From contig CM038470.1 of assembly GCA_021464415.1 (NCBI GenBank), positions 31,610,122 to 31,674,121 on the forward strand: a stretch of 64,000 nucleotides of DNA, in the 5' to 3' direction. Shown piece by piece: positions 8,313 through 62,614 of the stretch; position 1 is the first letter of the stretch; each line of letters begins with the position of its first letter. Source of the DNA: Lonicera japonica. Its lineage: Eukaryota > Streptophyta > Magnoliopsida > Dipsacales > Caprifoliaceae. A program made the position numbers and the translations under genes. The notes under the pieces are model-generated. The model did not search any database. It was not told the DNA's origin and saw nothing but the letters and a program-made list of their open reading frames with translations.

Positions 8313-8589
8313 CTAAGATATCCTCAATTGTAGCTACATATATAACTCCAAAAACTTCAAGTCCAGAATCAGCAAGCTTGTCGTAGAGGTCTTGTTTATT
8401 GCATCCATCTGAGAGTTATACATATAATAAAGCTCCATCACATAGTGAACAGTCAATTACCATTATATAAGCTATATAGTTCAATATAGAATCCAATCTA
8501 ATTCGCAGGTTTTAAGGCTCTGATCTGTTCAGCAAGATCTTTCACAAAAAGAGCACCAGTCATGAGAAGTACCTGAGAGGAAGAAACTC
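8313..8589 (-). other. Two unidentified exon-like segments
   Basis: On the minus strand, 8589-~8503 reads after a CTCAG acceptor as VLLMTGALFVKDLAEQ...LKPAN and a stop. 8408-8313 lies between a CTCAG acceptor and a TTAG|GT donor and reads KQDLYDKLADSGLEVFGVIY followed by VATIEDILG. Both have protein-like composition, but I cannot name a family. The stop at the end of the first segment means they are either from two genes or relics of a broken one. A further exon-like bit (DVITNAYIGAK) may lie near 8815-8850. Confidence 0.3.
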
Positions 8590-9952: not shown

Positions 9953-10044
9953 TTACACATTTTCTTCCTCTTCTTGACCATCATCTGAAGCTAAAAGATG
10001 ACTAAGAGCAACTTTTGCCCTCTTTGGTTCTGGTAAGTTTTCTT

Positions 10045-12004
10045 TTACATAACCTTCATTGCCCTTCCTTTGGCCGATTCTTCCTCATGCTCGCCTTCTT
10101 CAACCCTGGCCGTATTAGCTTCATCCTCAAAACCCTCTCCTTTTTCATCATTCAATAATTTTGGTTCACCATCTTCACCTTTCTCTTTACTACTTGCGTC
10201 TCCTTTACTCAGTTCCTTTTCGCATTCGGCTAAGACCGAGCGAACTTCATCACTTTTTGCAAGATCAAGCGGGGTTTTGCCAGCTTTGGTCTTGGCAGTT
10301 AGGTTTGCACCTTTCTTGACCAAGTACTTGATGAGGTCCAAGTAGGAGCCTTGAACGGCATAGTGTAGAGCGGTCATGCCCTTGCGGTTCGAAGATTTGA
10401 CAGAGACCCCAGATGAAATGAGGGTCCTTACAACCTCCAGGTGGCCTTTTTGAGCAGCGAAGTGGATTGCGCCCATGTCATCCATGGCAGCGGCACCTAC
10501 ATCAGCCTTGTTCTTGCAGAGATAACTTACTACCTGTGCCTGCCCAGACCATGCAGCTAAATGTAGTCTATGGTTCAAAGTTGGTTAAATCAAGGAAAAA
10601 AAAAACTCAAAAGAAAGATACAGTGGACCAGTAATAACCAACCACCTCCCACCCCTGACCGTTTCGGGCTCAGAGATTTGAAGAAATTTGGACTGCTTGT
10701 TTAAAATTAGAGGATTCAGATTTTGACAGCTAGTTTATGTCTAGATGAGTACTCGCTAGAGGCAAAAAATATATGTCATAACTCAAAAATCTAGGCCATC
10801 AAATTCTAAACAACTGGTCCAGATTTACTACTCTACTCTAGAGAAACTGAAATCAGTCAAGAGGAGCCGGATCCCCACACCCACCAACCATCCCACTCGA
10901 AAATAAGAAAGTTTGATAAATTCCCAATCATAGAATCATGCTTAGGTGTTGCCCAGATTTTTTAGTTTCTGCAATCAAACACGCATAAAGATGAAAAACA
11001 TGAAATTTTGATTATATTCATTCTTCCATGAGAAAGAAGTGCTATCAAAACACACCCTCAAAAGATATTGAAAAATACAACAGAACAATTTGTTTTTCTA
11101 TATGGTAATTCTGTAACTGTCTTCATGAGCTCGCCCCCAAAATAACTAAATACAAACCAAAGAGCATCTCGTACTCTCATTGAATGGCTTATTTGCAGTA
11201 AAATTCAATTCACTCAATTTCCAAAACTATCTAGCAAGAAAGCACATAACTTGGTTATTTGAGGCGAGGGGGTTGGCCTAGTGGCTCGTTCCGTAACATT
11301 AATGTGTATGGTTTGGTATGTATAGGAAATCATCCCTATATCTTCTATATAATATAATAAGCAGCTGTGGTTTTTAAATCTTAAAAATATATAAGGAGAT
11401 AAAGAATTGTGTGACTAATATTAAATATACTTTTTGAATGGTTTCGTGGTGCCTTTGCCACAGTTACGACCTAGTATAGATATATATATATATATATATA
11501 TTAGTATAATACTTTCCTCGTTAAGTGTAAACCAGTTTTAGGGGAACAAGTTTTAATCATAACTGATTTTCAAGGACAAGTTGTACCGTGAATTATCATT
11601 ATTATTCATTAGTAAGCACCAACCATTAACAAGCATAGATTTCTTTGACTAATTGTGCAACTCTCACCTCCCAAGAGCTCCCATCCCAAAAAATTAAATA
11701 TTAAAATCCCATAATGCAAATAAATTCCTATGAGAAATGAGAAGATCAAGAAAAACCCTAATCTTCTAATAACATTGATTGATAGTCAAGATAGAAAAGA
11801 AAAGAAAATAGACTTAAAATTAAATAGAAATAATGTGTGGAGTGCAGTAAAAGGATACGGGGTTCTAGAGTGCTTATCTCTAGAGTTGACGGCCAAAGGA
11901 TTTGAGCTGCATATCAACTGTACTGCGTTCAGGTCCCCTGATCGAGCAGCTGTGTGTAGATCTTGTTGCCCTCCCGAATTTGATATTTCCTTCTGATTCC
12001 CCAT
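10045..12004 (-). CDS. Ankyrin-repeat protein, 2 exons, C-terminal tail displaced by a frameshift
   Basis: Exon 1 is 12004-11859 and exon 2 is 10567-10045. The GT-AG intron (10568-11858) joins ...SRTP to LHLAAWSG, exactly where an ankyrin repeat must continue. The spliced 222 residues hold about four ankyrin repeats (residues ~15-150: LHTAARSGDLNAV, LHLAAWSGQAQVV, IHFAAQKGHLEVV, LHYAVQGSYLDLI) and an acidic, low-complexity tail. Ankyrin repeats bind proteins; the partner is unknown and no catalytic domain is present. The reading frame ends in ...GRAMKVM. A different frame running to a stop at 9953 reads KENLPEPKRAKVALSHLL then ASDDGQEEEENV, which looks like the natural C terminus of this family as I remember it. 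A one-base loss near 10065-10080 would explain this, either a real mutation or an assembly error. Confidence 0.85.
10665..10860. repeat. MITE-like dispersed repeat (family D), copy 1
   Basis: AAATTTGGACTGCTTGTTTAAAATT at the left pairs with an inverted CTGGTCCAGATTT near the right, and the whole block resembles 37425-37670 and 60586-60770. It lies in the ankyrin gene intron. Confidence 0.5.
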
Positions 12005-16522: not shown

Positions 16523-19042
16523 ATGTCAATCTCTTCTGCTTCTTTTTCTACATCATCAAAGGTAATCTCATCTTTCTCACTCTTCTTCAAACCCTTTTTA
16601 ACCTCTCACTTATTTACACCCTCTTACTGTACATTGTCAAAATCCCTAGTTGAAAGAATTACCAAAGCATTTCACCAAGAAGAGCTTGACCTCAAGCTCT
16701 TAAACCCTAATTCTTTCTCTAAATTAGAAACCCACCAAGTAGAATCAGTTATTTACAGCCTCAGGTCAAAACCCAATTCAGCTATTAGGTTCTTTGACTG
16801 GTCTGAGAATTATCTAGGGTTTAATCACTCACTCGAATCGTTTTCGGGTCTTTCACATTTGTTGCTTAGTAAGCGTATGTTCGATCCGGCTCGACGGGTT
16901 TTCAATAAAATGGCCGGGAAGTTTGGGGAATTTGATTGTTTTGGTGTGTTCTTAGGGGGTTTTGAGAGGTATAATTCTAACCCGTGTACTGTTTATAGCT
17001 TCTTGATTGATAATTATTGTCGAATTGGGATGATTAATCGGGCCATTGAGATCTTTTTTCGAATGTCTGCGATGGGGTTTTCGCTCTCCCAGTATGCGAT
17101 GTCGAAGCTCTTGAGTAGTTTGGTTGATTATAAGCGAATTGATGTTATTTTGGATGTGTATAAAGTTGTGGGTAATGGGTTAGAAGAAGAAGGGGAGATT
17201 TGGTCCATTAATTTATATGGTTTTGTGATGGGGGGTTTTTTCAAGAAGGGTGAGGCTGAAATGGGTTTAAAATTTCACAGACAAATGATTGAAAGAGGTT
17301 TCGTTCCCGATGTTATTACTTGTAATAAGATCATAAAAGGTCTTTGCAATAGTAAGTGTATCGAATTTGCTTATGGTTATTTCTCATTGATGATAGAGAT
17401 AGGTCCAAACCCGAGTTTGGTGACCTTTAGCACTTTGATCAATGCATATTGTAAGGAGGTGAGATTAAAAGATGCATTTGATCTTTATGACTTGATGTTA
17501 GCGAGGGGTATCACTGCTGACCTAGTTATTTACAGTATTCTAATTGATGCACTTTTAAAAGTAGGGAAGTTTGAGGGTGCACATAAGCTACTCTCGGTGG
17601 CATTAGATAGAGGTATTAAGTTGGATGTGGTGATTTTCAGTTCCATGATCGACGCCTATGTGAGAAATGGAGACATCGGGAAGGGATTTGATGTTTATAA
17701 TCAAATGTTAAAAGGAGGGATATTGCCGAGTGAAGTTACATACACTATCCTTGTAAATGGATTGTGTATGAACGGTAGGGTTCTCGAAGCTCTTGGCATT
17801 TATAGCCAGACTCTGAAAAATGGTGTCGAGCTTTCTATTTTAACTTATAGTAGTCTTATCGATGGATTATTAAAATCTGGAAATTTGAGAGACGGGCTTG
17901 GTTTATACGAGGATATGGTAAAGAAGGGGCATAAACCCGATTCTATGGTTTATAGTGTGCTTATAAATGGTCTTAGTAAACAAGGGCGAATGCTTGATGC
18001 TTGTAGGTTCTTTTACCAGGGTTTAAGCAAGGGTTTAAGGCCTAGTGTTTATACTTATAATACCTTAATTGATGGTTGGTGTAGATTGAAACGAATAAAA
18101 GATGCTCTGAAGTTGTACATTGGAATGGGTTTGTATGGTACAACCCCAGATGTAGTCACTTATACAGTGCTTATAAAAGGGTTAATAGAGAAAGGGAGAC
18201 TTTGTGAAGCATTAACTTTTTTCTTTCAAGTTCTGAAGAGGGGTTTATCACCGGATGTTGTAACGTATTGTACCCTCATTGACGGGTTTTGTGAAAAGAA
18301 GAATCTAAATGTTGGATTAGGGCTTTTCGATTTAATGATCACGAACGGAATAAATCCCGATATCGCTATTTACAATGTTCTAATCACCACGCTTTTCAAG
18401 GAAGGTCGGTCCGAAAAGTCATTAGAAATGTTCAGGTGGCTTCTTGAGTGCGGACCCGAACCCGATATCATCACCTACAACACAGTGATCTGTGGCTACT
18501 GCTCTTTGAATATGTTGAGCGAGGCAATTCGAGTTTACGAAGAGATTAAATTTGGACCGACCATACCCAATGCAGTTACTTTTACTATTCTAATTGATGC
18601 ATTTTGTAAAGAAGGTAGAATCGAAGATGCAATGTTGTTATTCTCCAATATGTTGGGAAAAGGTTCAGAACCCAATGTTGTCACTTATAGTTGCCTTATA
18701 GACGGGTATTTTAAGAGTGGTAATATGGGGAATGCGCTTGAGCTTCACGAGGAGATGCTTGGGAACAATATCTCTCCGAATATTGTTAGCTATAGTATCT
18801 TGATCGATGGTCTTTGTAAAAGGGGACTAATGGAGGAAGCTTTGATAGTTTTTCATTTGGCTTTAGAGAGAAAATTATTGCCGGATTTAATAATGTACGG
18901 GATTTTGATTCACGGTTACTGCAAAGTCGGTAGATTGGAAGAGGCTGTTGTGTTGTATAACCGTATGTTGGGAGAGGGCATCAAGCCAGATGATTTTTTA
19001 CGAAGAATACTAGCTAAGTATCATCTTCAAAATGATGAATGA
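16523..19042 (+). CDS. P-class pentatricopeptide repeat (PPR) protein, intronless
   Basis: A single uninterrupted frame encodes 839 residues. Residues 1 to ~45 are rich in Ser, Phe and Lys with few acidic residues, a likely mitochondrial targeting peptide. From about residue 150 to the end, roughly 18 tandem 35-residue motifs follow the pattern VTY(S/T)xLIDG(F/Y)CKxGR...A...M...G(xx)PD (for example PDVVTYTVLIKGL, PNAVTFTILIDAF, PNVVTYSCLIDGY). No E, DYW or SMR domain follows, so this is a plain P-class protein. The family binds organellar RNA and affects its stability, splicing or translation; the target is not predictable here. Absence of introns is typical. The frame is intact, unlike several neighbours, so it is likely functional. 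Confidence 0.93.
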   Translation: MSISSASFSTSSKVISSFSLFFKPFLTSHLFTPSYCTLSKSLVERITKAFHQEELDLKLLNPNSFSKLETHQVESVIYSLRSKPNSAIRFFDWSENYLGFNHSLESFSGLSHLLLSKRMFDPARRVFNKMAGKFGEFDCFGVFLGGFERYNSNPCTVYSFLIDNYCRIGMINRAIEIFFRMSAMGFSLSQYAMSKLLSSLVDYKRIDVILDVYKVVGNGLEEEGEIWSINLYGFVMGGFFKKGEAEMGLKFHRQMIERGFVPDVITCNKIIKGLCNSKCIEFAYGYFSLMIEIGPNPSLVTFSTLINAYCKEVRLKDAFDLYDLMLARGITADLVIYSILIDALLKVGKFEGAHKLLSVALDRGIKLDVVIFSSMIDAYVRNGDIGKGFDVYNQMLKGGILPSEVTYTILVNGLCMNGRVLEALGIYSQTLKNGVELSILTYSSLIDGLLKSGNLRDGLGLYEDMVKKGHKPDSMVYSVLINGLSKQGRMLDACRFFYQGLSKGLRPSVYTYNTLIDGWCRLKRIKDALKLYIGMGLYGTTPDVVTYTVLIKGLIEKGRLCEALTFFFQVLKRGLSPDVVTYCTLIDGFCEKKNLNVGLGLFDLMITNGINPDIAIYNVLITTLFKEGRSEKSLEMFRWLLECGPEPDIITYNTVICGYCSLNMLSEAIRVYEEIKFGPTIPNAVTFTILIDAFCKEGRIEDAMLLFSNMLGKGSEPNVVTYSCLIDGYFKSGNMGNALELHEEMLGNNISPNIVSYSILIDGLCKRGLMEEALIVFHLALERKLLPDLIMYGILIHGYCKVGRLEEAVVLYNRMLGEGIKPDDFLRRILAKYHLQNDE

Positions 19043-25845: not shown

Positions 25846-27017
25846 ATGAAAGGCATCTTCTCGGTTTCCGGTGATTACATCTACTTCAAGTCTCAAGTCC
25901 CCCTTCACAAGATCCCTGTATGTATCTTTTCTTCATTTAATTTTTTTTATTCAGCTTCATTTTGCAACTGATGATGCTCGCTTTTTATTGATCTTTTTGT
26001 TAATTATTGATGTATTGGGTCAATTTCTCGTTATAATTAGGGGAATTCTGAACTGGGCCATGTTTAAATTTAAGAAGTTTTATAATTTTTGTGGATTATC
26101 TGGGTTTATCTGTGATTTGGTACCCTCTTGTTTAGATTGAACTTGTTATTGTTAGGTTGTGATTGAATTAGTCCTTGCAATTTGAAGTGGGTTTCTTTTA
26201 GTCAGTGAAAAATTAAACAAATTTCATGATGGGTAAATCCTAATTTTTGTATAAACTGAATTATAGTATGAATTAATTAATTCATTTTCCCATGCTTATG
26301 AATTTACTTGCATATCATATAAGCTATGTATGAAGCTCTTAAAATCTCTGGGTGTCCGTAACTGCTAATTTTTGAAGCATTGGACAAATTGAATAAGAGA
26401 TTTGACTATCCCATTCCCATATTAATTTTCTAAGTCTGAACAATTTTTTTGCCCCGTATTAGTATCCTTCAGTGCCCGATTTTTCTGCAAGATTCTTTGT
26501 TTCTGTCATAGGCAGTATTGCTTTTTTCGTCTAATCGATTGTACTTTCTAGACTTCTAATTGTCTTTCATTTTCTTTCTAATGGAAGTCTGCAAAATTTG
26601 AGATAGATGCTTCTAAGTCGGATAGTGGAATTGAGGTGGGTTTGAGCATGATATTGATTCCTCATGGCCCTCTAGCTAGTTGAAAATTTAGTGATGGGTG
26701 AAAGACTCAAAGGATTCTAAGTTATGGGTTATTTTTTAGCTTAAGTAGTTACACCATCCTACAGTTTATGATGTTTTTGGATTAGAAGGTTTGACTTGGT
26801 ACAATTCATTTTCTTATAAGTATCTAATAAAAGGTTTTGTTTGCTAGATCCGACCAAAGCAATAGAGATATTACGATAATATGACTTTGGTCCAAAAGCG
26901 GTGCCTCCACTCATTTGTCTTCCTGGAACAGCAGGAGCAGCGGATGTATACTGCAAACAGATCATGTTGTTGTCCATGAAGGTTAAAATCTTTCTCTCTC
27001 CTCCCTGAAAAATCATA

Positions 27018-27215
27018 CTCCCTCTATCCCTAATTAAAAGCCCATGTTTGACTTTCTCGTTTTGTAAGAATGCGCTAATTCCATCACAATCAATAGTTTA
27101 GCGTAGAACCCAAGAATTGAGTAATGAGAAAAATAGTTTATTGTAAAATTTGGTTCATTAATTATTAACTGAGAAGGAAAATGGACTCTTAATTTGGGAT
27201 GGAGGGACTAGGGAG
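27018..27215. mobile_element. Stowaway-like MITE in maspardin intron 2
   Basis: CTCCCTCTATCCCTAATTAA and its inverse ending GGAGGGACTAGGGAG bound 198 bp, with TA on both sides (27016-27017, 27216-27217). This is the standard Stowaway signature (CTCCCTC... with TA TSD). Confidence 0.85.
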
Positions 27216-28822
27216 TAATAAAAAAGAGTGCAAGTGTTTCCATTATTCCATATATTAATTTTTTGTCGCATAAAAGTTGCATCTGGCAAATTATGATTTT
27301 GTTTTCCTTTCGAACTTTTTCCTTCTTGTGGTTTTGGTTGTTTTCTACCGAGAATGACCTTAACTATGAAATGATAACGGAGGGTCAGTTTGTCTTATTT
27401 TTTCTTTTCTTTTGCAGGATTATCGAGTGATTTCTGACTTTCTGTTGATATTCCACCCATATGGAACCACCATGAGTGGGTTCAATCATTTGAGAAGTTT
27501 TTGGATGCTATTGACGTTCATTATGTAAGATTTCCATTTCCATTTGCTTTGTTTGTTTGTTTTTGTGTGCTCGCGCGCGCTTCTTTTGTGCCCTTTCTCG
27601 CTAAAAGTGAACCAAAGTACTCGAGCACTGCGCCTGGATAGCCGATACCCAAGCTTATTACCTGACCTAGCAAAACTTAATTTCTTGGTCATCTGGAAAT
27701 TGCATTTTTTCTTGTATGTGGATATTCAATAATTCTGCAAAAGTTTTGGCTGCATTAGTTGTCATGAAACAGATTATACATGGAATTTTTGTTTTTCAAA
27801 TTTAAGTTTCTCATAACTATGATAATTTCCAGTTTTTCAAAGCTTATGTCTATACATGTATCTATTTCTATACATTAAGTGAGAGGAGCACTTAGCAATT
27901 ATATTGTGGCACATACTTAATCAAATTACAAAATTACCCTTCCTTAATTGAGAAAATAAAAAAAACAATTCTAAGGGGAATTGTTGATTTGAACCAGTGA
28001 CCTTAAACAACAGCAACTTAATGGCTAGATCAAACATGACATTGCTATGAAGATACTAGATACAATATTAATGTATGCACATCGAGTACGTCACATGTTC
28101 TAATATATTCGTGTATATATACTGGTCTTTTCCTCTTTTCTACGTGTTTTTTTAGTATTGCAATTGCCCCCTTCAATAACTTGGAAACCATAATAATAGC
28201 AGGATAAATTTTCACAAAGAAGAGAGTTTTGTTCTTACCTTCTTGCATTTTAGAAGAGTTTATGTGTTCTCATGATGAAACAACTAACTACTCGTTAGGG
28301 CTCATATTGAACAGATACATCTTTATGGTACATCCCTTGGAGGGTTCTTAGCACAACTTTTTGCTCAGCATCGTCCACGGCGGGTACGATCTTTGAAACT
28401 CTACAATACGTTCTTGGAGATGCGGCATTTCTCAGCTTCCTTGCCTTGGGCTCCTGTGTATGTGTTCATGCTTAATTAGCATATATGTAGTCTAATTTAT
28501 CTATTTTTGTGTTCATTGATTCTTAATTTTGTTCAACTTCTTTTTTTTTTCCTTCCCCAATTATCGACAACATTGTTTAATTTTGGGCTTTTTGCTGTTG
28601 GTTAAATCTATCCCATCTACTTTCATAATCATTAGAGTTTGCCCATTGCTTGCCGGGGAATCTCAAAGTATTATGTAAAAATGGGGGCAATGTCTAATTC
28701 TTTTTTGACGTTATTCTTTAACTTAACACCTAGTTTAATGTAATTATTTGAGATTTCCTCACATACGGTCCGAAGTCTAACAATTATGAAAACAAAGATT
28801 AATTATAGTTTCACATATAAAA

Positions 28823-28844
28823 GGGGGGGGGGGGGGGGGGGGGG
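28823..28844. repeat. 22-base poly(G) run
   Basis: An uninterrupted G tract within the maspardin pseudogene region. Such runs are prone to sequencing-length error. Around it, 28460-29700 replaces the missing family exon with AT-rich repeat-like sequence. Confidence 0.9.
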
Positions 28845-29869
28845 TGGTATAGTCAAAAAAGCCCTTTAATTTTTGGCACAACGTTAATCAAGGGGGATCT
28901 AGGATTTCTATGAGGGGTGAGTTGTGTAAAAGGGATGCATCAAAATTCAATTGAACGGGTGAATTATCAAATTTTATTGTTGCAAATTATGAAAATAAAA
29001 AAAAAATTATTTCCTTACTAATCACAAAGATAACTTCAACTAGTATTTAAAATTAATAAGAAATACTTAAAAAAAGAAAGGGCTAGAGGTTAGAAAAAAA
29101 AAGGAGAAAAGAAAGAGAAACAAAGAGGGAGAGAGATGGAGGTTAGGAAAAAAAAATAATGTTAGGTAAGATATTCGAACTCAAAACCTCTCGCTTAAAA
29201 TAAAAACCATTCCCCCCTTGAACTTATTTAAGTTTGGCATTTTCACGAGTAATGAATTAATAATTTGTACTAGGGCTGGGCTAAACTTATATCAATATTC
29301 TAATATTGTGATTCCCTTTTGGGTGCAAACTCAAAATTAATGGCGATGAATGGAATATGTAAACAGTGGGGTTCAAATTCCAATGATCTAAAATGTGGGT
29401 GGAAAGTCAAAATACGGATTATAATGTTAGGTGCAAACTCAAAATTTCTCTTTGAAAAAAAGTAGTATAACAATACTTTCTGATTCATTAAATATATCTT
29501 TTATATGTAACAAAAATTACAAACGTTTCAAAAGTTCAACCAAATGAAACTAGGAATTCAAATTCCACATGTCCGAAGGGTACATTTAGACTCTACAATT
29601 TGCATGCACCGGGACCATCTCATTTCTCACATGCATTCTTTGTTGCTTTAAGAAGAAAACAAAAGGTTAAAAAAGTTTCTCTAATACTACAAATTTTGAA
29701 GCTACCAGGTTGAAACACTCTCAAGAGATGATTCGGCCTCGAGTTTGACTTTAACGGTTGATGCTGCAGCAGTTGGATCTCTTCTGCTTTCGGATTCTTT
29801 TCACTCTAATAGATGTTTGTTTGCAAAACTTGTGCTAATTTATGTTTATACATGCTTAGAGCATCAACA

Positions 29870-30220
29870 TCAATCTAATTTGTGTATGGCAAGTGTAGTG
29901 TATACTGTATAGAGACAAATAGTGAAGGGATGTCCGGATAATAGTTGAGCATCAAAACGGACATCTCTTGCCATTTGAATTTAAACGACAAGGGATGTTT
30001 GTATAATGGATCCCAACAACTTCCAAATGGACAAAAGATATCCGTTTGGGACTCAAAACGGACAACTATTATTTGTTTCCCAAACGGATGTCTGTTGTCC
30101 TTTTGGAACCTAACGGACATCAGTCTCAAACGGATATTAATTGTCTTTTTGAGTCCTAACGGATAACTGTTGACCTTTTGGCACCTACCGGACATCATTA
30201 TCCATATGATAAGGAATTCA
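29870..30220. repeat. Degenerate ~45-50-bp tandem repeat
   Basis: Units of the form CAAACGGAT..(10-14)..GTCCTTTTGG(A/C)(A/C)CCTAACGGA recur at about 30020, 30080, 30128 and 30160, with inverted AAAACGGAC variants on the left. It begins near an AGAGCATCAACATC sequence typical of MITE ends, so it may be a MITE interior. Confidence 0.5.
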
Positions 30221-30336
30221 ACCAAACTTAAGTTTTGTTTCTTGGTAAACCAAACTTAACTTTATCTTGCCTAATTTACAACCTAGTATTATATGACAAT
30301 CTTCTCCTACAAATCTAGACTGTCGTGGATGCTCAC

Positions 30337-31333
30337 TAGGGGTGTAAACGGACCGGATACTACTCTATCCATTATCCGTATCACTTTTTAAATTTACTAT
30401 CTAAATCCTTATCCGTATTCATTCAAATAGTTTATTAAATTATTCTTATCCTTATCCTATTGGATATCTTGGATTCGGATAATATCCTTATTTATTTTTT
30501 TATATATAGCTCAATTTTAAAAATATATTTGACTATATAACCTTTTAATTAAAATGACACAAGTTGTAACTCAAGAAGTATAATGAAAGTATTCTAAAGC
30601 ATGTGTATTTTATTAATAAATGAGTTTTAAATATGTAATTTGTTGAAAGTATTATAAAGTATTGCCAATTAAAACACTTATTTATAATGATATGCTAAAA
30701 AAAAATGTAATGCAAACTTAATTCTGCACTGTATAAAAAGTACAATTTAAAAATTTATTGCAAAGTTAACTTTGCACTCATTTTCGAGTTTGATCAAATA
30801 TAGGCCTTTGATTTACAAAAATATTATTCGTTGATTTTTTTGCAAAAAAGCTCTTTAAAATAAGTCAAAATTTTCAATCTCCCATTACAATTTGAAATTT
30901 GTTATGATCTCGAACCTTTCATGCTAACAAATAATATATGTTGTAAATAATATTTCTTTCTTTTCCTTTTTTATAGGCTTTTTCTTTTCTTTTTTGGTTT
31001 AGTTAATTTTTGTTTTGGTAAATTGGACTAACTTGTGTACACTAGATTAAATTTTGACTTATTTTTTTTTTAAATGGGGAGAGAAATATATACTAAATTA
31101 TAGCGGATATGAATATCTGCCAAATCGGATATCCGCAAATATGGATAATCCACCTCAAATACAGATTATCAAGGTCGAATACTATCATTATCCATATCCA
31201 TATCCATTTTCTCGGATATTTATAAAAACTATCCAAATCATCTTTTTCGAATATGGATTTAGATAAATATCCTCAAAATACGGATTCAAATTCAGAAAGG
31301 ATTCAGATTTTTAAATATCCATTTACACCCCTA
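30337..31333. mobile_element. hAT-type element with perfect 8-bp TSD
   Basis: TIRs TAGGGGTGTAAACGG and CCATTTACACCCCTA (inverse TAGGGGTGTAAATGG) enclose 997 bp. The TSD ATGCTCAC is at 30329-30336 and 31334-31341. GGATA(T)-rich subterminal repeats occur in both ends. Located in a maspardin pseudogene intron. Confidence 0.9.
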
Positions 31334-31411
31334 ATGCTCACTTAGGGCTCGTTTGGTTCGAGCTTTTGAAGATTCCTAGAATCCTAAATTCCATTCCATG
31401 AGGATTATTTT

Positions 31412-31979
31412 TAGGGGTGTTCAAAATCCAATCCAATCCATTTTTTCTGGATTTTATGGATGATTGGATTAGATCGGATGGACATTTTGAAAACCGAAAA
31501 AATTGGATCGATTTCGGATTTATGTGCTCTAGAAACCGATCCAATCCAATCCAATCCATTATTAAAGTTGTAACTTTGTAATATTCATAAGATAAGGGTC
31601 ACTTTGTAATATTTATAAGATAAGGGTTTTAATTAAAATAACAAAAACTTAAACAAATAGCATCATTTCATTTATTGATATTTGTAACAAGACTCGTTCC
31701 TATCATTTATTTAAAATAAGAAAACCAAAAAAGAATGTGAAAATAAAAAAGAGAAATTTTTTATTTTTCTCATTTAATGCATCACATTGTATAGGATTCT
31801 TTCATATGCATCAAACGAAGAATCAGATCGGATCGAAACCGATCCAATCCAACATTTAATTGGATTGGATTGGTAAAGTATGTTGGATTGGATTGGATGC
31901 TAAAACCTAAAACCGACATCGGATTGGATCGGATGCGGATGGTTTAAAATGACCGGATCGGATCGGATAGACACTCCTA
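31412..31979. mobile_element. hAT-type MITE nested inside the Harbinger element
   Basis: Starts TAGGGGTGTTCAAAATCC, ends GACACTCCTA. Perfect 8-bp TSD ATTATTTT at 31404-31411 and 31980-31987. Many GGATTGGATTGG / CCAATCCAATCC repeats lie near both ends. The frame at 31338-31559 is element sequence. Confidence 0.9.
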
Positions 31980-32104
31980 ATTATTTTGTTTGGTTGGAGT
32001 TTTATGTAGGAACTAGGAATCCTAAATTCCCCCATTTTGCCAAAATCCATTCCCTTATAAATTAGGAGGAATCTTGGACTCCCAATTTGAGGAATTCTTT
32101 TTTT

Positions 32105-32460
32105 TTTTTTTCCAAAAACTGTTTTTTTTTCCAGAAAATAAAAAAAATTTATTTTTTCCTAGAAAATGAAAAAAAATCCCCAGAAAATTAAAAATATATT
32201 TTTACCCCAGAAAGTGAAAAAAATTAATTTTTTCCAGAAAATGAAAAAATATTTTTTTCCCAGAAAATGAAAAAAAAAATTCCCAGAAAACTAAAAATAT
32301 TATTTTTTTTCCAGAAAATGAAAAAAAATAAATTCCTAGAAAATTACAAATATTATTTTTTTCCCCAGAAAGTGAAAAAATTTATTTTTTTCCAGAAAAT
32401 GAAAAAAAAATAATTTCCAAGTAAATGAAAAAAAAATCCAAAAAATTAAAAATAAAATTT
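32105..32460. repeat. Tandem array of ~20-40-bp units
   Basis: About ten or more CCCAGAAAATGAAAAAAAT-type units separated by A/T runs, inside the 31345-32587 element. Confidence 0.8.
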
Positions 32461-32896
32461 TCCAAGTTCATTCCTAAAACTCCAACCAAACGATCATTAA
32501 TGGAATCCAATAAAGGGTGACAGGAATAAATGTTTCCTGGCATTTAGAATGCCAATTCCATTCCTAAAGCTCGAAACAAACGAGCCCTTAAGGTGTATGT
32601 TTAGGCTTTAATATATGAAAATAGAAGTAAAATAGCAATATCTTTTTGGGAAAGTTATCATTTCTGAAGTTCCATCTATGGTTCATAATTTTCTTTCGTT
32701 GAAACCAAATCTGATAACTGTGAATTTTAGTTAACTTTGGTACTTTATAAGAGAACATAATTTTGACTTTGACCTAGTCAGTGGTCAAAAATACAAATGA
32801 CTGTTGTATAATCCCTTAACAACTCAAAGATCAAGGGAAGGAAAGGTACCCTAGTGCAAGGCAAGCATACTTGAAGAGTGGTCGTGATTTTCCTTT

Positions 32897-33514
32897 CTAG
32901 AAATTAGGTAGAAGGTCTTACTACACATTGATTTTTACCAAAACTCCAATGAATAATATTTTTTTGAATGAAGGGCTTATTTTTAATTGGTAATTAGTGT
33001 AAGAGGCCTATTTTATTTTATATTTTAAATGAAGGTATTTGAATAAATTTAAATATCATTTAATTAATAAAAACATGTTATATATTACCTAAATTACCCC
33101 CTCTTTATGAAATTTGCACAAAAAATATGAATATTGCAGTGAAATATGGACTGCAATATGAACTTTGCACTAGAAATATGGACTGCAAAGTTCACATTGC
33201 AGTAAAATATGGACTGCAAAGTTCATATTGTAGTAAAATATGGACTGCAAAGTTCATATTACAGTAAAATATGGACTGCAAAGTTCATATTGCAGTGAAA
33301 TATAGACTGTAAAGTTTATATTGCAATCCATATTTTAATGCATATTGGTATTTTTTAGTTTATTTTAAGGGTTGAGATGTCATTTTATAATGAAAAAAAA
33401 AACACATGTCATATTATTAATAAAATAAAAAATAGGCCCTTTATTTACAAAAAAATTATTCATTGGCTTTAGTGTGAAAATCTTTCTCTAATAAGACTTT
33501 TTTTTAATTGTCCC
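32897..33514. mobile_element. MULE-type MITE (family M) inserted in a maspardin exon
   Basis: Starts CTAGAAATTAGGTAGAAGG, ends CTTTTTTTTAATTGTCCC. Perfect 9-bp TSD TTTTCCTTT at 32888-32896 and 33515-33523. The TSD splits the codons for DFPF, and the exon frame resumes directly after it. The ends form imperfect TIRs sharing GTCTTA...CCAATGAATAAT. Inside, about six ~30-bp units of the form AAATATGGACTGCAAAGTTC occupy 33140-33330. A second copy in the other orientation is at 48588-49188. Confidence 0.93.
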
Positions 33515-33641
33515 TTTTCCTTTTCTTTCATGCCCTAATGAGGTTAATCTCCATTTCCAGGTATTATTCTCTCTCTATATATATATACACATATATGTAG
33601 TAGTTCTGACTTCTGACTTTTGAGTAGCAAATTTTCACTAA

Positions 33642-38284: not shown

Positions 38285-38980
38285 CTAAGTAGCTGCAGTG
38301 TGCTGTTGATGCTCCAAGTCCCACTGACTGGGCCAACATTTGGGCCTGATGGCCTCAACCTTCACATCTTCATGCCCTTTTATGCTCAAGTTGCCTGTCC
38401 CTTTGAAGGCTTCCTCTAACCGCCCTAGACCACAGGATCCAAGTGCCGTATTGACAGTTCCAGCCTTCTTTCCTGTTGATCTGACCATTACTTCAGAAGA
38501 ACCCGGACCAACTCTCTGTTCCACCTCTGAAAGGACAAAGAAGGAACATTTAAGGGGGGAAGTAGGGAACATATGTGAAACACCTAGCATGCCACGCAGC
38601 AGTAATCTCGAGCACATGGTGATGTCAATATTGACTCTACTACGTGACAGTATGCCAAACATACCATGGGCTCGGGGTTTAATAAGGGAGTGAATATTGA
38701 ATAAAATACACATGGAATACCATGTGGCAGTGATCTCGAGCCAATGGTGATGCACCACATAGGCGGCTATCAAGACTACGCATCTAACTGAGCTAATGAA
38801 TGTTATGTGAATGTAATTTACCTTTACCGCTAACATCGAGAAACTTGAGTGGAAACAAACGCTTTCGAATGACACCGCGGTGATGTGCTCAAGCGATTAG
38901 TTCTTGACCCACGTAGCACTCCATGTCAAAGCTTATGGTGTTTAGACCAGCAAGATTGTATTCTAGAGGAACTGCCTCCC
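38285..38980 (-). pseudogene. IBA57: IBA57-like (GcvT/YgfZ family) iron-sulphur assembly factor, C-terminal relic
   Basis: Two minus-strand exons remain. 38980-38822 follows a TTTTTAG acceptor and reads [18 protein letters not shown], then [19 protein letters not shown] and KRLFPLKFLDVSGK. 38526-38285 reads EVEQRVGPGSSEVMVR... GTVNTALGSCGLGRLEEAFKG...VKVEAIRPKCWP and ends in TAG. Phases join (AAA G|AG GTG). The family signature KGCYVGQE is present as MECYVGQE, with Lys and Gly lost. An in-frame TGA (38889-38891) replaces the residue before A/THHRG, consistent with CGA-to-TGA. I find no N-terminal exons upstream. IBA57 supports mitochondrial [4Fe-4S] assembly in a folate-fold protein. The stop, degraded signature and missing N terminus indicate a pseudogene, lying ~2.5 kb from the maspardin relic. 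Confidence 0.82.
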
Positions 38981-52915: not shown

Positions 52916-55900
52916 ATGGAGGGAAGAGGCTACTCGGACTTTTTCAGAAACACAAGCGAGGAGTTGTTTATGAAAACCTTGATGGAGGGCTCGATTGGAA
53001 TGCCGATGCAAAACATGGAGATGTTGGGTTTCAAGAATCTTTCTCAAAATTTCCGTGCAGATAGCGAAGAACTCTTTAAGAGCTGGCTCACAAATGGAGA
53101 GGCAAGCACTTGTACTCTCTATCCTCTTTATTGGATTTTACATTTAATCTATGATCGAGTCTCATACTATAAGGTGTTAAAAGTGTGAATTAAACAAGCT
53201 GGTCTTTTATCAGATTACAGTGTGGAAACTGGAGACTAATTTTATTTTACTTAATGCATTTATTGCGTTTCTTTTGTTGACTTCTAGAGTTCTAGTTTCT
53301 TGATGGCAATTAAACTGCATCAACCCTAATGCATCCTGGTATTAATGAGGTTCTCAAGTAAATAATGAGGTTCTTAAGCACATATGATAACCAGCTTTGT
53401 GTTTTCTTTCTCGAAGGTGTTTAGAGGCATGGTTTATGATGTTCTTTTGCTTGTTTATTTTCTAGATTTTCTTATTTTATTCTAAATCAAAGACATATAA
53501 AGCTTCAAAAGAATACTCGTTGAATATTGGAATTTCTCTGTAGTACTAGTCCAATTTTATCACTGAGAACAAGTGGGCAATGCATTACCAGTCAATCTTA
53601 TAACTCACTGATACGTTAGTGACTCGTTGAAATAAAGTTGAGTAATTGGCCTAGTGCATAATCAAACATTTCAAACAAAATTTCATAATCAGTAAAAGTG
53701 ACAAAAAAAACCTGTCTTTGGTGTTACTTAGTTGGTGATTTTTTTTTCCTCAGAAAACATTTATTTTATTATCTTTTGACATTCATGTATGTATCTAATA
53801 CATGTTTCCACTTTTACCCTTCCTTAATTTTTGCTTATCTGAATTGATTCATTTTTCTTCACAGAATCAAGGCTGCAATTCAACAGCCATAGCTCATCAT
53901 CGTACTCGACAAACATCACAAAGGTTAGTTGGATCGAAATGTAGTTCATACTAACTGATATAAGACCTTTCTTTCTTTCCTTTTTCCCTGTAATTTCGAC
54001 AAGAACAGCTTAAGGATAGGCCATTGTGTTTGCCAGTGGATTCTTTTTATTTTCATCTTCATCTTCAGAGTTTACAGTTTGTTTGAAGGAAGAACCACTA
54101 AAATATGAAGCTCTTTGTGGTTTTAATTTACTAAAATAAATAGGGTCAATGACTCAAATACTCAATAATAATAAATAATGATGTTTCTTGATTGTAACAA
54201 AATTATATTTTTAACTATTTTCTAGATATTGTCCAAGTTATGAGTCTTGCTCGACAAATTTTGATTAGTTTAAATAAGGTTCAAATTTTCTGTCCTGTAA
54301 TCTTTCCACGTAGAACTCTTCATAAATGTACAAGTTCGTAGATATCATAACAGACCCGTTGAGTAGGCTACCCCTATGCTTTGCCGGAGCATGGCATTGT
54401 TTTGAAAAGTGTACCATTTGCTTTTGTAGTTGTACATTGCTTTGGTAGTAAGCCATTTACTCAGACAATAAAGCCACCCTTTGATTATTCAAATATAAAT
54501 AATATTTTCTGGATCACATATATGGTTGTAAAATATAAATACTGTCCCAAAAAAAGCACGCTTGCTTTTAAAAGTAAGTGAAGCATGCCCAGCCCAATAA
54601 ATTTGGCTTGTAAATCTAGATTTTCTGATGATAGCATGTTTTCTTTTCACATGCCTGTGTGAACTGGATGTAAGACCTCTTGTTTTATCAAAAATATGTT
54701 AATCTAATTATACTTTGTACATATATAAATTTCTATGTTAAATGCAGGATATCCACTGAACTAGCTACTATGTCTAACCAGCAACAGGGGAGTTTACTAA
54801 ACAGAAAAAGAAGCAACGAGAATTTATTCCAACAAAATACTCCTGTGGCCGATGAATCCTTAAGGGACCATACTCAACATTCAACCAGGTAATCCTTTTT
54901 ACTCATTGATATATATATATATACCTACCTTGAATGACGGCAATTTAGACAACATGGTCGTTAGAGGTTTCAATTAATGTTTTAGGTCATGTTTGATAAA
55001 AAAGTTGGAAAATGATTGAAAACAATACTAGTTTTTGTGATAAGTTAGAGCGAGTGATTTAATGAAATGTTCTATTAGTGTTTGCATTTCCATGGAAAAA
55101 TATTTTTTTGGTCGTGGGTAAGGATAATTTTCCATGGAAAATAAGGAAAAGAAGAACATCTCACCAAATCGCTCATGTTTTCTTCCAACTTCTCAGAAAA
55201 TGTGGTATTGTTTTCAATCATTTTCCAACTTTTTGTCAAACTAACCCTAAGTGCATGAACTATTTCTTTCCTTATTTGCTCTCCTCGAGTCCTTTAAAGA
55301 ATCAAACTTTAACTCCACAAATCCTCACTAAAACTTTGTGGGTATGGGCCCATCTTATTGCACAATTGTTCCTTATTACATGTTATTTTAATTCTAACAT
55401 ATTCAATGCTGGATTATAATGTGGATAATGATTCTTGGTGGATTTTTTATTTCCATCAGGAATGTGGCTGAAAGAGGGTTGCAGGCTAGTAACTTGTACT
55501 TGGCTAAGGTTTGTTCATATTGAGATCATGAAGAGCTAGACAACGGTTCAATTAGACAATTTAGGTTCCGTTTGATAAATAGTTGGAAAATGGTTGAACA
55601 CACTTACAAGTTTTATGAGAAGTTGAAAAAAGAGATGAACTGATTTGGTAAGATGTTCTCCCTCTTTTTCCTCTTTTTTCGTGGAAAATTTTTCTTATCC
55701 ATTCCCCAAATAATTGGATTCCACAGAAAAAATGAAAAACTAATAAAACATCTCACCAAATCACTCGTTTCTTTTCTAACTTCTCATAAATATTAGCAAT
55801 GTTTTTAGTCATTTTCTCCAGTTTTTATTTTATTAATCATTTCACACCCTTAGTTTATTCTCATTCCTCCTGTTGTATACAGGCATGGTTCAATAGTTCT

Positions 55901-58900
55901 CAACCCATGACGAGAAGTCGTTCCTCTGAGTTAAGGTATCCACATTTTTCAAAACTGTTGAAATAATATCAGAACATTTGTTACTTTTCGACTTTTAAAC
56001 AACATCACATAGGGACAGAGCTAGGATTTGGCCTTTGGTGAGGGTAAGGGGTGTGAAAATATATGCAGTCTTGTAGTAGAAGAAAAAAGTGGATTTCTGT
56101 GTGTGAAATTTGTTTCTGCTCCCAAATCTCCATTGAAGATTCATATTTCACACTGATACTTTCAGTACACATAATTGCATTCTTTTTGACAAATTTATTT
56201 GGTCTTAAAACATTTCGCCATTGAATGTGACTTAGACCGGCGAATATCAGTTTTGCTCCCAACATTTGCCACTGAAAGACACTTTTCCTTTGGTAATGAA
56301 TTTTAATATTAGATATTTGGCTACTGATAGTATAACTTTTATCATCACCGGATCTATCACATATTGCCCCTCCTAATCAACTTAGTTTTAGGAACCATCT
56401 CACCCAAAAGCTTAAGTTGTTAGGTAATGAGCCAACAATGTATATTGTGCTCTTCAACACTCCCCTTTGCGTGCGACACAAACCAAACCAAAGGTGCACA
56501 AACACAAAGGGGAAACAATTGCAACGGGAGGATTCAAACTCAAGACCTTGCGGACTCTGAGCTCTGATACCATGTTAGGAACCTTCTCACCCAAAAGCTT
56601 AAGCTGTTAGTTAGTGTGCCAACAATGTATATTGTGCTCTTCAACACTTAGTGATATGATCCGGTCTAGCTTCAATTTCTATTCAACCATGGTGGTTTGT
56701 GGCGTTCTAAATGATGATCCGCACATGATGAATCACAAGGATAGAGCATGGAAATTCAAATGGAATTTTATAGAATTTCACATGCTTGAAGCAAGGAGCT
56801 TAAATGATAATCATACATTTAATGGAGTTCCTAAGGACTGGGCGTGGAAGTTCAAGAGGATAAAACGGCAAGGAGTCCCATTGGAATAATCTAGAAGATA
56901 TTAATTTAAATTGTTTTTAAATTAATAGGGCTTCTTGAGTCTCATTATTCAATTAGGAATTAGAATTAGTAGTTTCCTTTTTGAATATTTTCCTTATTGT
57001 CTTATTATTAATTTCCTTATTGTGTTAGGATTATTCTAGAAGTTATTTTCCTTTTCTAAGTAGGAATTAGTTTCCTTTTTGAATTAGGATTCTAGTTTTG
57101 TTTCTCCTATTTAAAGGAGGCACATTATTGTTTTATTAATTAAGTTTTGATGATTAATTAAATTGAGAGCTTTCTCTTTGTGTTCTTTAAGAGCATGTTG
57201 AACATGTTGAATTGAGTAAATTCAATTGTTCTTGACTTATCAATCTAGCAATCACACTAGATTGTGGCGTCATTCATTATACCGAGGTTCGCGCTTCTTT
57301 AAGCGTTGGGTTGAGGTTTCCGCCTTCCATCTTTCGACGTATTCCAAGGTTCTTGCTACGTTTGTAGTTCAAGGGTTGAGGATCCATTAGCCTGGCTAGG
57401 AAAGTGACGCGATCCCGGATCGTCTTTTCTAGCCAGGCTAATGGATCCTCAACCCTTGATACAAACGTAGCAAGAACCTTGGAATACGTCGAAAGATGGA
57501 AGGCGGAAACCTCAACCCAACGCTTAAAGAAGCGCGAACCTCGGTATAATGAATGACGCCACAATCTAGTGTGATTGCTAGATTGATAAGTCAAGAACAA
57601 TTGAATTTACTCAATTCAACATGTTCAACATGCTCTTAAAGAACACAAAGAGAAAGCTCTCAATTTAATTAATCATCAAAACTTAATTAATAAAACAATA
57701 ATGTGCCTCCTTTAAATAAGAGTAAACAAAGCCTTAATCCTAATTCAAAAAGGAAACTATTTCCTACATAGCAAAGGAAAATAATAACTCCTAGAATATT
57801 CCTAATGCAATAAGGAAATTAATAATAAATAACAAGGAAACTTATTCAAAAAGGAAACTACTAATCTAATTCCTAATTGAATAATAAAACAAGACGACTA
57901 AAATAAACTCCTAAATAATTAAGGAAATAATATAGAAGTCTTGAATTTCTATGGAATTCTTTTTGAATTTCCATGCTCTATCCTTGTAATTCATCAGGTA
58001 TGGATCATCATTTAGAATGCCACAAACCACCATGGTTGAATAGAAATTGAAGCTAGACCGGATCATATCAGAAAGACGATCCGGGTTCGCGTCACTTAGA
58101 AGATGATTTTTTCCCCCCTTAATTTTCTGTTTTAAGTCACATATTAATGCATTTTTGTATTAAGTATTATTTCCTCAGAAAATTGGATATATGTATACCT
58201 TGTTTACAGGAGGAGATACACAGCAATGCAAAACTCTCAGTCGTCACTGGGTCCCACGCACATCGCACCCGAACCCGCTGTCAGCAATTTGAAACATGAA
58301 TTTACAAACCCGGATGGATCAATCTATGATATCCCTAACCAATTCAATACATTTATGTCTCCATCCAATTCATCTTCTTCTACTTTCAACAACCCTCAAG
58401 TGGGTCCCATAGATAAAGTTTCTTCTGTAGTAAGCATGCTTAAGGGTACCCTAGAACGCAAGAAATTGAATAGCCACATTGAAAAAGAAGGCAGTTGAAG
58501 ATAGTTCATTGGGATATTATAATGCTCAAGAAGTCATTGGTAATTCTATTATGAACCAAGGACAAGGTAACCATATCTATGAATCACAAGGAACTTTTCA
58601 AGATTTATTGACTGTTCAAGTTAAAGATCATGGTGTTATACAAGTAGTTGATGGATCCGTAAATATTGACTTAGAAGGTTTTATGGCTACTACAAATGTG
58701 ATCCAAATGAATAATAATTTCTCAAGAGAGCCCTCTCAAAGTGAATCTTCGGCTGCTGCACATGTTGTCTCCACGGGTTTCGATGTGTGTGATGGGCCCA
58801 GCAACTCAGGTCAGACTCTGAGCATTTGTGAGAGCTCGAGGAAACAAGTTGGAAATGAAAAGAGTTCAGAAAATGGATCCAGAGCCAAAGGTATGTGTAA

Positions 58901-61900
58901 TTTGCATAAGCTATAAGCTACATTCATTTGCGTAAATTCAAATTATGCAATCACGAGTTGGGCTTCTACTGATCTTTAGGTCCGGTCTGGAGATATATAG
59001 GGTTCTGTGCAAAAATTAAAACAGGGGATCCTTTTCACATGTATAACTTACTTTTGAGCCCGTATTAGAATGTTTTGTTTAAAATATTGGTCCCCTTGCT
59101 TAAGTTATAAAAACTTTTGTTGTGATAAGTCCCTTGTGAGGTTGCCCACTGCACACAATGAGGGCCAGTCCGGAGATATATAGGGATCTTTGCAAAAATT
59201 GAAACAGGAGTCTCTTTTCAAATATACTTTTTGGGCCCTTATTCGGTTATAAAAATTTATGTTGTAACAAGTGCCCAATGCAGTTGCCCACCATGCACAT
59301 CTTCAAGGCTGACCCTGCCTTTAAGCATATCTTGAGTTATTTGATGGCTCTTAAAATTTTATTTTATTTGATTGGATTGCTTCATGCTATCCTACTTATA
59401 TCTAAATCCTTAGTTGGAAGAACGGTGTTTAATATTCTCTTTAGGGGCTGTTTGAAAACGGTTGAAATAATTTTCACCTAGGTGAATATAAAAATGGTCA
59501 GATTGTAGTTTCACATTTTCACCCATTTGGGATGAAATCTTTGTTGTTTAAAACTATGCATACACGCACATGCTATAATTATGCAATTTTAAACCAAAAA
59601 TAGTGAAGAAAGTTCAATGCCAAATATGTGAAAATATAGTTAACCATTTAAGTTTTCACCTAGGTGAAATTATCTTAGGCTGAACCAATGGGCCCTTAAT
59701 TGCCTTACATCTCATAAAAACTACTAAATTCTTTCTTTCATCAGCATGAAAAAGATTTGGTAAGAACTTACTGTAATTTTTATTTTTTTTGGAAGTTATT
59801 GGGGATGTCATCGGGAACTTCTTTTTAAATAATTTTACTTCTGACATGTGGCATTGTATTAGCTTTTCAGATTATATATTAAGATTACAAGTGCCCAAGC
59901 AAAAAGGGACTATAAACAGTTATTCTTCCTATACATTTGATTAGTTTACATGGGAAAGAATTGCATCCATTGGAATTGTTCCCACAGAAAGAAAAAAACA
60001 TACAGGGAGTTGGCTTATGGAAACCTAAAAATACCAACAATGGAATAGTTTCCTTTTGTTGGAATTTCCATGCATCACATTCCTTCCTTTTTTTTCCCTT
60101 CCCAGAAATGAATTTCCACTAGTATAAGTATATAACTATTTTCTTTTTGAACTACAGATATCAAAGAACGAATGTACGACCGAAAAGAAGATAGTAAGGT
60201 ATATTTATTGGTCAAACTTCCTGTTTCCTTTTCAAAGCAATAACAGTGTTGTTAAAAGAGGTATTGGTAGGCCTAAAAGTTCACTCTTGTTTCAATTTTT
60301 TCCTTCCACTTTTTGTGCATATCCAGCAGAAAGGAAGTTTAGTTCGATACGGATCTGTTACATCTGCTGGTTCAGGTGATTAAATTTGTTTAAAGGCTCA
60401 CATGTATAAACTCCTGCAAAATTTATTAAAAGTCTTCTAATTTCCTCTAACCAACTTAAGTTGTGTGCAGTGGACAAAGGAGATCCCACAAAGAAGCGTA
60501 GGGTGGAGCGGTCTCGCAAGTATGTAAACACTCAATTAGCTCCTTTGGTAGATCTTGTTTATAAAAAGTCCGATCTTTTTAGTGATGAAAATTACTCTAG
60601 AAGATGGTTGAATAAATCTGGACCACGACTTTAAACTTGGATAGTTCAGATTTTGACTAGTAGTTTTTGTCTAAATAAGTCATTGTCAAAGGCAAGCACT
60701 ACTTGTCAAAATTTAAGCCATCTAATTTTAAACGAACGGTCCAGATTTGCTACTCTACTCTGAGAGGAGAGCCATATCCATATTTATGGGTTTCTTTTTA
60801 AGTTAGCATAGATCTATGTATTTTATTTGGTATGCTAGTGAGAATACATGAAATGAATTTCCTCAAATGCAAAGTTAGATAAGGATAAATGCTAAAAGAT
60901 GCGAAATGGATTTTTATTTTATTTTTAATACAAGAGATGTACGGAACCAGGTGGTTAGAGGAGGGGTGGGGTAGGGTGGGGCTTGAACTTGAGCGACTTG
61001 TGTGAATACTCATACGCTCAACCACTTGAGCTTAAACCCGGATCTGATGCTAAATGGAATCTTTGTAGATGAGATTAAGAATAGGATGTTGAATGTAATG
61101 TACCAATAAAAGTATGTCAAGGTTTTTTCGGATAATCAAAAGAGAGAGGGGGCTATTATCTAAAGAAAACTGTGGTGAGATCTAGTAAACAAAACTGTAG
61201 TGTGTGTGTGTGTGTGAGAGAGAGAGAGAAATGATTAAACATTATGAGAAGCTATTTTAAACCATATGATGATCTCGTATGATGGTATCTATATTGACTT
61301 GCTAGATAAATAGGTCCCAATATTCACCAGAGCACTTTTTGACTTTGACAAAGCGTATTAAAACCAGAATCTGTTATATATCACATACTCTAGTTCACTT
61401 GCTCAAAACGCATCACAAACTAGTAATTCCATTGTTGTCTTTCACCGTTTTGGCTCTTTTAGTCTTCCTCTTGAAATCAAAACTTTGAGATATAGATGAG
61501 TTGTGCCGATTTTTATGTTTCTTGTGATGCAGAATGGCAGAAGCAAAGGAAAGAACTTTGACTCCATCAATTCCTTCTGATACGCAATCGATTCTCAAGC
61601 GATGTGAAAATCTTGAGAAGGAAGTGCGGTCGCTCAAACTTAACTTGGCTTTCATGAATAGGTAATCTATACACATTTTAATCTACATACTACATCACAG
61701 AAAATGAATTGAAAGGTGAAATAAAATCCTCAAACTTAACTTGGCTTTCATGAATAGGTAATCTATACACATTTTAATTTTATTTAATCTACATATTACA
61801 TCATAGAACATGAATTGAAAGGTGAAAGTTGATTTTATTGAGCTAGCACTTAATTGCTTTGTTTTAATCATTGCCTGCTGTGTAGTTTATATTGTTAATT

Positions 61901-62614
61901 GCTTGCAAATACTCCGTCTCAAAAAGAGGGGTCCACTTTGACTAGTGTATTTTTTAAGAAAACACCAATTTCAACTTTACTCATGGTCAATGATACAACT
62001 CATTTTCTGTTATGAGATTTGGTACATTGATTTTGCTCCGACAAAGAAACATGATTATTGATTTGAGACACCCAAAAAGGAAGTGGGACTATTTTTTGAG
62101 ATGGAGGAAGTACCATCATACTCTTCTTCTTCCTTAAATATAAAGAACAAGCCTACTTCGTGAACCAACAAGCTGTGGATCTTTGTCACATTTTACTATC
62201 TCCTATCATCTTTCAGTTAAAAGATATTCCATCTATCCCAAATTAAGAGTCCACTATTACTTTCTAGGATGTCCCAAATTAAGAGCCACTTTCCTTTTCG
62301 AAACATAATCAATGCACCAAATATCATGATAGTATCCAAGTTTTGTGTCTTAACCATTGGCTATGTTGAAACTAGTGTATCGTTAAAAATGTATGAAAGT
62401 CAAACTAAACTGTTAATTTGGGACGGAGGGAGTATTTGGCTATTGTTCCAAGTCTTCTGACACTTTGATTAATCGCGTTATAAATTGCAGGAAGGACTCA
62501 GAACAAACTACGCAAATAGAAGAGCTTCAAAAGCAGAACGAGGAGTTGACCGATGAAAAGGAGCGTCTTTTAGAAGAGATCGAGAGGATTATCTCAGAAA
62601 CAGGCAAAATGTGA
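52916..62614 (+). CDS. CYCLOPS: CYCLOPS/IPD3 symbiosis transcription factor, 11 exons, with a 1-base frameshift in exon 6
   Basis: Exons: 52916-53101, 53865-53923, 54748-54888, 55460-55508, 55883-55935, 58210-58890, 60158-60198, 60330-60375, 60471-60519, 61533-61661, 62491-62614. Start at MEGRGYSDFF puts DSEELF serine at residue 50, the position of the CCaMK phosphosite I remember in Lotus CYCLOPS; the second region, MTRSRSSELRRRY, is also kept. Then FMSPSNSSSS, KVSSVVSMLKGTLERKK, the basic KKRRVERSRKMAEAKER and a C-terminal coiled coil (LKRCENLEKEVRSLKLNL, IEELQKQNEELTDEKERLLE) for DNA binding and dimerisation. CCaMK activates CYCLOPS in root-nodule and arbuscular mycorrhiza signalling. In exon 6 the frame IEKE|GS stops at 58496-58498, while AVEDSSLGYYN continues one frame over. 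One extra G near 58490 explains this. As written the product is 258 residues without the DNA-binding half; without the extra base it would be 518. Intron 1 has a GC donor. Confidence 0.95.
54985..55247. mobile_element. Tourist-like MITE (family H1) in CYCLOPS intron 3
   Basis: GGTCATGTTTGATAAAAAAG and the inverse ...CTTTTTGTCAAACTAACCC, with a GAAAATGATTGAAAACAA / inverse block inside. Flanks are TTA and TAA, compatible with a TWA target. Confidence 0.75.
55564..55849. mobile_element. Tourist-like MITE (family H1) in CYCLOPS intron 4
   Basis: GGTTCCGTTTGATAAATAG at the left and an imperfect inverse ending TTTCACACCC at the right, TTA on both sides (55561-55563, 55850-55852). The inner block GAGAAGTTGAAAAAAGAG resembles the copies at 5640 and 54985. 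Confidence 0.75.
56386..56646 (-). mobile_element. Miniature LTR retrotransposon (TRIM/SMART type), 261 bp, complete
   Basis: Two 74-bp LTRs, 56386-56459 and 56573-56646, differ at few positions. Read on the minus strand each starts TGTTGAAGAGC and the intact one ends TTCCTAACA. Directly inside the minus-strand 5' LTR is TGGTATCAGAGC (56572-56561), the initiator-Met tRNA primer-binding site. Directly before the other LTR is the polypurine tract CAAAGGGGAG (56469-56460). Only 113 bp lie between the LTRs, with no coding capacity. The 5-bp TSD CTTAG is at 56381-56385 and 56647-56651. It must have been mobilised in trans. Confidence 0.92.
56652..58094. mobile_element. 1.44-kb palindromic (foldback) insertion in CYCLOPS intron 5
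   Basis: Left arm from TGATATGATCCGG (56652) to CTAGG (~57400) is inversely repeated at 57425-~58070. The 20-bp centre TGACGCGATCCCGGATCGTC (57405-57424) recurs inverted at the far right end (GACGATCCGGGTTCGCGTCA, 58075-58094). So the right half (57405-58094) has its own ~25-bp TIRs, while the left half lacks the outer one. The whole starts TG, ends CA and is followed by CTTAG (58095-58099), the same 5 bp that precedes it. The left arm is longer because the right has deletions. Frames 56614-56889 and 57277-57600 are arm sequence. Origin may be an inverted solo-LTR pair; this is inference. Confidence 0.8.
58979..59295. repeat. ~182-bp tandem duplication in CYCLOPS intron 6
   Basis: GGAGATATATAGGG(T/A)TCT...GCAAAAATT(A/G)AAACAGG occurs at 58988 and 59170, followed in both by GTTATAAAAA...TTGTTG/ATAAGT and GTTGCCCAC. 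Diverged copies. Confidence 0.7.
59444..59695. mobile_element. PIF/Harbinger-type MITE in CYCLOPS intron 6
   Basis: GGGGCTGTTTGAAAACGG and the inverse ending ACCAATGGGCCC, inner blocks TTTTCACCTAGGTGAA on both sides, TTA on both flanks (59441-59443, 59696-59698). Length 252 bp. Confidence 0.75.
60586..60770. repeat. MITE-like dispersed repeat (family D), copy 3, in CYCLOPS intron 9
   Basis: AAATCTGGACCACGACTTTAAA at the left, inverted CGGTCCAGATTTGCTAC at the right, and ATTACTCTAGAAG / TACTCTACTCTGAG at the edges. Related to 10665-10860 and 37425-37670. Confidence 0.6.
61633..61830 (+). repeat. 96-bp tandem duplication copying the exon 10 3' end and its splice donor
   Basis: CTCAAACTTAACTTGGCTTTCATGAATAGGTAATC occurs at 61633 and again at 61729, with downstream ACATTTTAAT...ACATCA.AGAA.ATGAATTGAAAGGTGAAA also doubled. 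The second copy places a second, identical donor 96 bp into intron 10; using it would add an in-frame TAA. Confidence 0.88.
61912..62110. mobile_element. Stowaway-like MITE in CYCLOPS intron 10
   Basis: CTCCGTCTCAAAAAGAGG and the inverse ending TTTTGAGATGGAGGAAG bound 199 bp, TA on both sides (61910-61911, 62111-62112). Confidence 0.85.
62227..62432. mobile_element. Stowaway-like MITE in CYCLOPS intron 10
   Basis: TTCCATCTATCCCAAATTAA and the inverse ending TTTGGGACGGAGGGAG bound ~206 bp, TA on both sides (62225-62226, 62433-62434). A second CCCAAATTAAGAG block at 62273 suggests a small internal duplication. Confidence 0.8.

Follow-up and report, generated by a model that had tools for sequence, protein, structure and literature searches.

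A one-base insertion splits the CYCLOPS/IPD3 gene in a Lonicera japonica genome assembly and is most likely a residual assembly error

The window, a 64,000 nt stretch of the Lonicera japonica assembly, carries a CYCLOPS/IPD3 gene on the plus strand at 52916-62614, for which translation and splice junctions define 11 exons. Exon 1 (52916-53101), also delimited by alignment to the Lonicera macranthoides protein P0001 (LguiB_028387), ends at a GC donor (53102), and an in-frame ATG further upstream at 52784 is likewise open; the remaining nine introns are of the GT-AG type. It is followed by exon 2 (53865-53923), exon 3 (54748-54888), exon 4 (55460-55508), exon 5 (55883-55935), exon 6 (58210-58890), exon 7 (60158-60198), exon 8 (60327-60375), exon 9 (60471-60519), in which the basic stretch KKRRVERSRK begins, exon 10 (61533-61661) and exon 11 (62491-62614), which encodes the C-terminus ...ETGKM and a normal stop codon ending at 62614. 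The exons total 1561 nt, or 3n+1. Minus one base, they encode 519 residues counted from the ATG at 52916, and the 518 residues given in the original prediction were corrected accordingly. Intron 5 also harbors a fold-back (inverted-repeat) element of approximately 1.4 kb (56647-58075), whose inner arms (57096-57366 and 57460-57730) are 99% complementary and whose outer arms (56647-56780 and 57942-58075) are 91% complementary.

Similarity to CYCLOPS over the full length was evident when the complete translation, with X placed at the lesion in exon 6, was used as the query. Among 7990 scored candidates, 441 proteins matched at E≤0.001, and the best 120 of these showed 59-94% identity, many of them being named CYCLOPS. 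We hand-picked 16 relatives from the best 120 of the 441 and compared these predicted proteins with the window's copy at the protein level. The closest match among those listed was P0001 of L. macranthoides, with 514 of the 519 residues compared being identical. Across all 17 aligned rows, the CCaMK phosphosite S50 within RADSEELF is invariant. The TRSRSSEL motif, which we take to be the holder of Lotus S154, is also present, and its serines 157, 159 and 160 are invariant. S50 and S154 are described as the CCaMK phosphosites of Lotus CYCLOPS (PMC5865340). P0001 had no sequence match to solved structures at E≤0.01, a Pfam search gave two matches, both under the cut-off, and a literature search joining CYCLOPS with Lonicera listed three papers, none related to judge by their titles. 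The homologue search and the alignment bear out the earlier assignment of this locus to CYCLOPS/IPD3.

In exon 6, the in-frame reading ...KKLNSHIEKEGS ends at a TGA at 58496-58498 after 258 codons. From AVEDSSLGYYN onward, the exon is stop-free one frame over up to its splice donor; exon 7 carries on the shifted frame, and the five exons past exon 6 extend it to ...ETGKM and the normal stop. This reopened frame is no chance reading because it shares 260 of 263 compared residues with the protein of L. macranthoides. Alignment to that species and 15 other relatives places the extra base at 58485-58495, where it yields a GG dinucleotide close to five consecutive A and there is no long homopolymer. 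The C-terminal DNA-binding/coiled-coil half is encoded but, as assembled, is not joined in frame to the part that stops after residue 258. The premature stop is followed by 392 nt of exon 6 and by five exon junctions, the last of which is 660 nt of mRNA away. If the lesion were real, a transcript with its stop so far ahead of these junctions would be expected to undergo nonsense-mediated decay. No other lesion was seen across the 11-exon gene. The original prediction had described a one-base insertion that removes the DNA-binding half of an otherwise undamaged gene: the insertion is confirmed by the exon sum, the stop after 258 codons and the reopening one frame over, the loss of that half from the assembled frame by exon translation, and the sound state of the rest by exon translation together with the alignment of relatives.

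The CYCLOPS protein of L. macranthoides runs unbroken across the lesion site and has no extra residue there; it shows no frameshift, whereas the window's copy has one. All 16 aligned relatives are gapped at the lesion column. The predicted L. macranthoides protein differs from the window's copy by 24 extra residues at the GC donor of intron 1, probably because the annotation passed over this donor. Of the columns that do not vary among the 15 relatives outside Lonicera, 63 of 66 before the lesion and 78 of 80 after it are preserved in the window, and all five exceptions are common to the window and L. macranthoides. The pairwise comparison with L. macranthoides gave 2 differences in 256 residues before the lesion and 3 in 263 after it, so that relaxed constraint is not visible in CYCLOPS. 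Thus, neither of the two marks of a pseudogene that were sought in this gene, further lesions and relaxed constraint, was found. In a gene undergoing decay, more change would be expected behind the lesion, but a very young allele would show no such excess, and the result counts only against an old loss. We also searched with the N-terminal half for a half-length CYCLOPS product in Lonicera; the best 120 of 146 proteins included none named Lonicera, the top match being from Ilex (68%), and unnamed matches such as P0163 (84% over 34% of the query) could not be placed.

The window has a second single-base shift approximately 48 kb from CYCLOPS, in an unrelated ankyrin-repeat gene (9953-12004, minus strand). 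The conserved tail of this gene (...KRAKVALSHLLASDD...) sits in a different frame from the upstream part; the shift amounts to one missing base beside a run of A at 10069-10071, and an early stop follows directly after the codon ending at 10048. The site is read through in all 11 aligned relatives, which were hand-picked from the best 120 of 509 and comprise P0241, the orthologue in L. macranthoides (99% in the alignment), and 10 others. As controls, we inspected a PPR gene on the plus strand (16523-19039), a single exon that is open throughout when its first ATG is counted from the translation, and a pectinesterase gene on the plus strand (4600-7550), which apparently has three exons with partly modelled splice sites and in which no frame break was seen; both were checked for open frames and domain cover rather than against a Lonicera orthologue. 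Single-base shifts accordingly occur in two of four genes, or twice in approximately 6.4 kb of coding DNA. This rate of 0.31 per kb (95% interval 0.04-1.13) describes four genes of one window and an approximate sum of their lengths. Errors are not everywhere, since both control genes are unbroken. Two further gene-like stretches were excluded from this count because they appear decayed or partial. At 26878-33600 lie exons of what is presumably a Maspardin gene, with in-frame stops and long insertions, which is probably decayed; at 38288-38896 on the minus strand, a frame matches the CAF17 C-terminal domain slightly over the Pfam cut-off. Open frames were also listed for two genome flanks, L002 and L003; in L002, the locus directly upstream of the window, a 1564-codon open frame at 5308-9999 reaches the locus end and is probably a retrotransposon.

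The assembly is most likely that of L. japonica 'Sijihua', which is described as a PacBio assembly made with Canu and SMARTdenovo and put through three rounds of Pilon with 61x Illumina data, and for which heterozygosity was estimated at 0.74% (PMC9130202). The same source gives 5,502 pseudogenes predicted in 'Sijihua' with GeneWise from stops and frameshifts, versus 18 for the other assembly (PMC9130202); this disparity bears on the reality of the lesion but is only a hint, as the methods may differ. When 401 bases of exon 6 were compared at the DNA level with the whole assembly (886,079,548 bases in 967 sequences), their sole match was themselves, and reads should therefore map uniquely at the lesion; a diverged paralogue could escape a search of this kind. 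Indel errors of long-read assemblies have been described as a source of frameshifts in small genomes (PMC12007338). The CYCLOPS lesion resembles such consensus errors in being a single-base shift in an orderly gene with a second one nearby beside an A run, but it differs from them in that the assembly was polished with short reads and the extra base lies outside a long homopolymer.

Taken together, these observations favor a residual assembly error, to which we assign a probability of roughly 0.75; CYCLOPS would then be intact in the plant, which by inference lacks the extra base. Under this reading, the locus would be the honeysuckle CYCLOPS/IPD3 gene, whole in the living plant, and the extra base at about 58485-58495 would be an insertion error of the PacBio long-read assembly that Pilon missed. 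The true product would be an ordinary CYCLOPS transcription factor, predicted to comprise about 519 residues and to be phosphorylated by CCaMK in symbiosis signalling. Two independent shifts hit conserved genes and both are absent from the close sister species, so consensus errors account for them more easily than two null alleles. The splice sites and phases of the remaining CYCLOPS gene, all in order, speak for the same conclusion, as does its unrelaxed sequence on both sides of the lesion. Against it, three Pilon rounds with 61x Illumina coverage should have mended a homozygous error in unique sequence, the extra base forms its GG pair outside a long homopolymer, the two control genes are unbroken, and the ankyrin shift could itself be genuine.

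A genuine recent null allele would explain why the extra base outlasted polishing, which should have corrected a simple error in unique sequence. Such an allele would most likely be heterozygous, with the insertion haplotype captured by the assembly, and the 0.74% heterozygosity estimated for 'Sijihua' (PMC9130202) makes a heterozygous real insertion possible. Any protein made from it would comprise 258 residues, with the N-terminal regulatory part retained and the DNA-binding half lost. A young allele is expected to be free of further lesions, as this gene is, and the stop lies well upstream (660 nt) of the last junction. We nevertheless consider a real null unlikely, given the second single-base shift, in the unrelated ankyrin gene, and the absence of the CYCLOPS shift from the sister species L. 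macranthoides. A homozygous null would also fit badly with the heavy arbuscular mycorrhizal (AM) colonisation of the species: for L. japonica roots, possibly of another cultivar, colonisation by two AM fungi is reported at 91-96% and 89-96% (PMC4759589). As a counterweight, Medicago is described as having a redundant copy, IPD3L, and its ipd3 mutants as still able to form arbuscules (PMC5865340), so that symbiosis may survive a single null in a plant with a second copy. The same colonisation record weighs on the proposal, raised in the original prediction, of early pseudogenisation in a lineage that is abandoning symbiosis. The non-host Arabidopsis is reported to have lost CYCLOPS/IPD3 (PMC10874911), but in honeysuckle the post-lesion sequence has scarcely diverged more than the part before it and the shift is absent from L. 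macranthoides. Loss of symbiosis across the lineage is thus unsupported by the reported colonisation and the unrelaxed sequence, and we regard it as very improbable.

Two further readings take the insertion as real without silencing the gene. The shift might be bypassed in the plant by splicing within exon 6 or by ribosomal frameshifting, and on paper 105 GT-AG pairs of at least 60 nt within the exon could restore the frame. None of the 105 joins a donor score of at least 7 with 60% pyrimidines before the acceptor, in a crude and therefore weak screen that would pass no more than 5 of the 10 real introns of the gene; splicing bypass was set aside on this result. A bypass device is moreover not expected when all 16 relatives are gapped at the lesion, and this reading seems hardly credible. 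By analogy with Medicago, a real insertion followed by internal re-initiation could instead yield a free C-terminal half that acts as an always-on regulator rather than a null. The source for this analogy describes IPD3Min, the DNA-binding half of Medicago IPD3 (aa 254-513), as constitutively active and the ipd3 knockout as nearly eliminating mycorrhization (PMC10874911). The lesion lies close to the border between the inhibitory N-terminal half and the DNA-binding half, and the first in-frame Met past it is about 20 residues on. Judged by residue number, the half cut off roughly matches IPD3Min, but unlike IPD3Min it has no start codon placed for it; such a product appears highly improbable.

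The choice between an assembly error and a recent null allele, which the original prediction had left open, now leans toward the error through the second frameshift of the window and the reported AM colonisation, short of proof. The split of CYCLOPS in this assembly is most likely not a real feature, and honeysuckle most likely has an ordinary intact gene. Were the lesion real, a medicinal crop that forms mycorrhiza would harbor a loss-of-function copy of a master symbiosis gene and would be useful for asking how far plants other than legumes depend on CYCLOPS. If it is an error, which is more likely, surveys of the presence and absence of symbiosis genes that draw on this assembly can score false losses.
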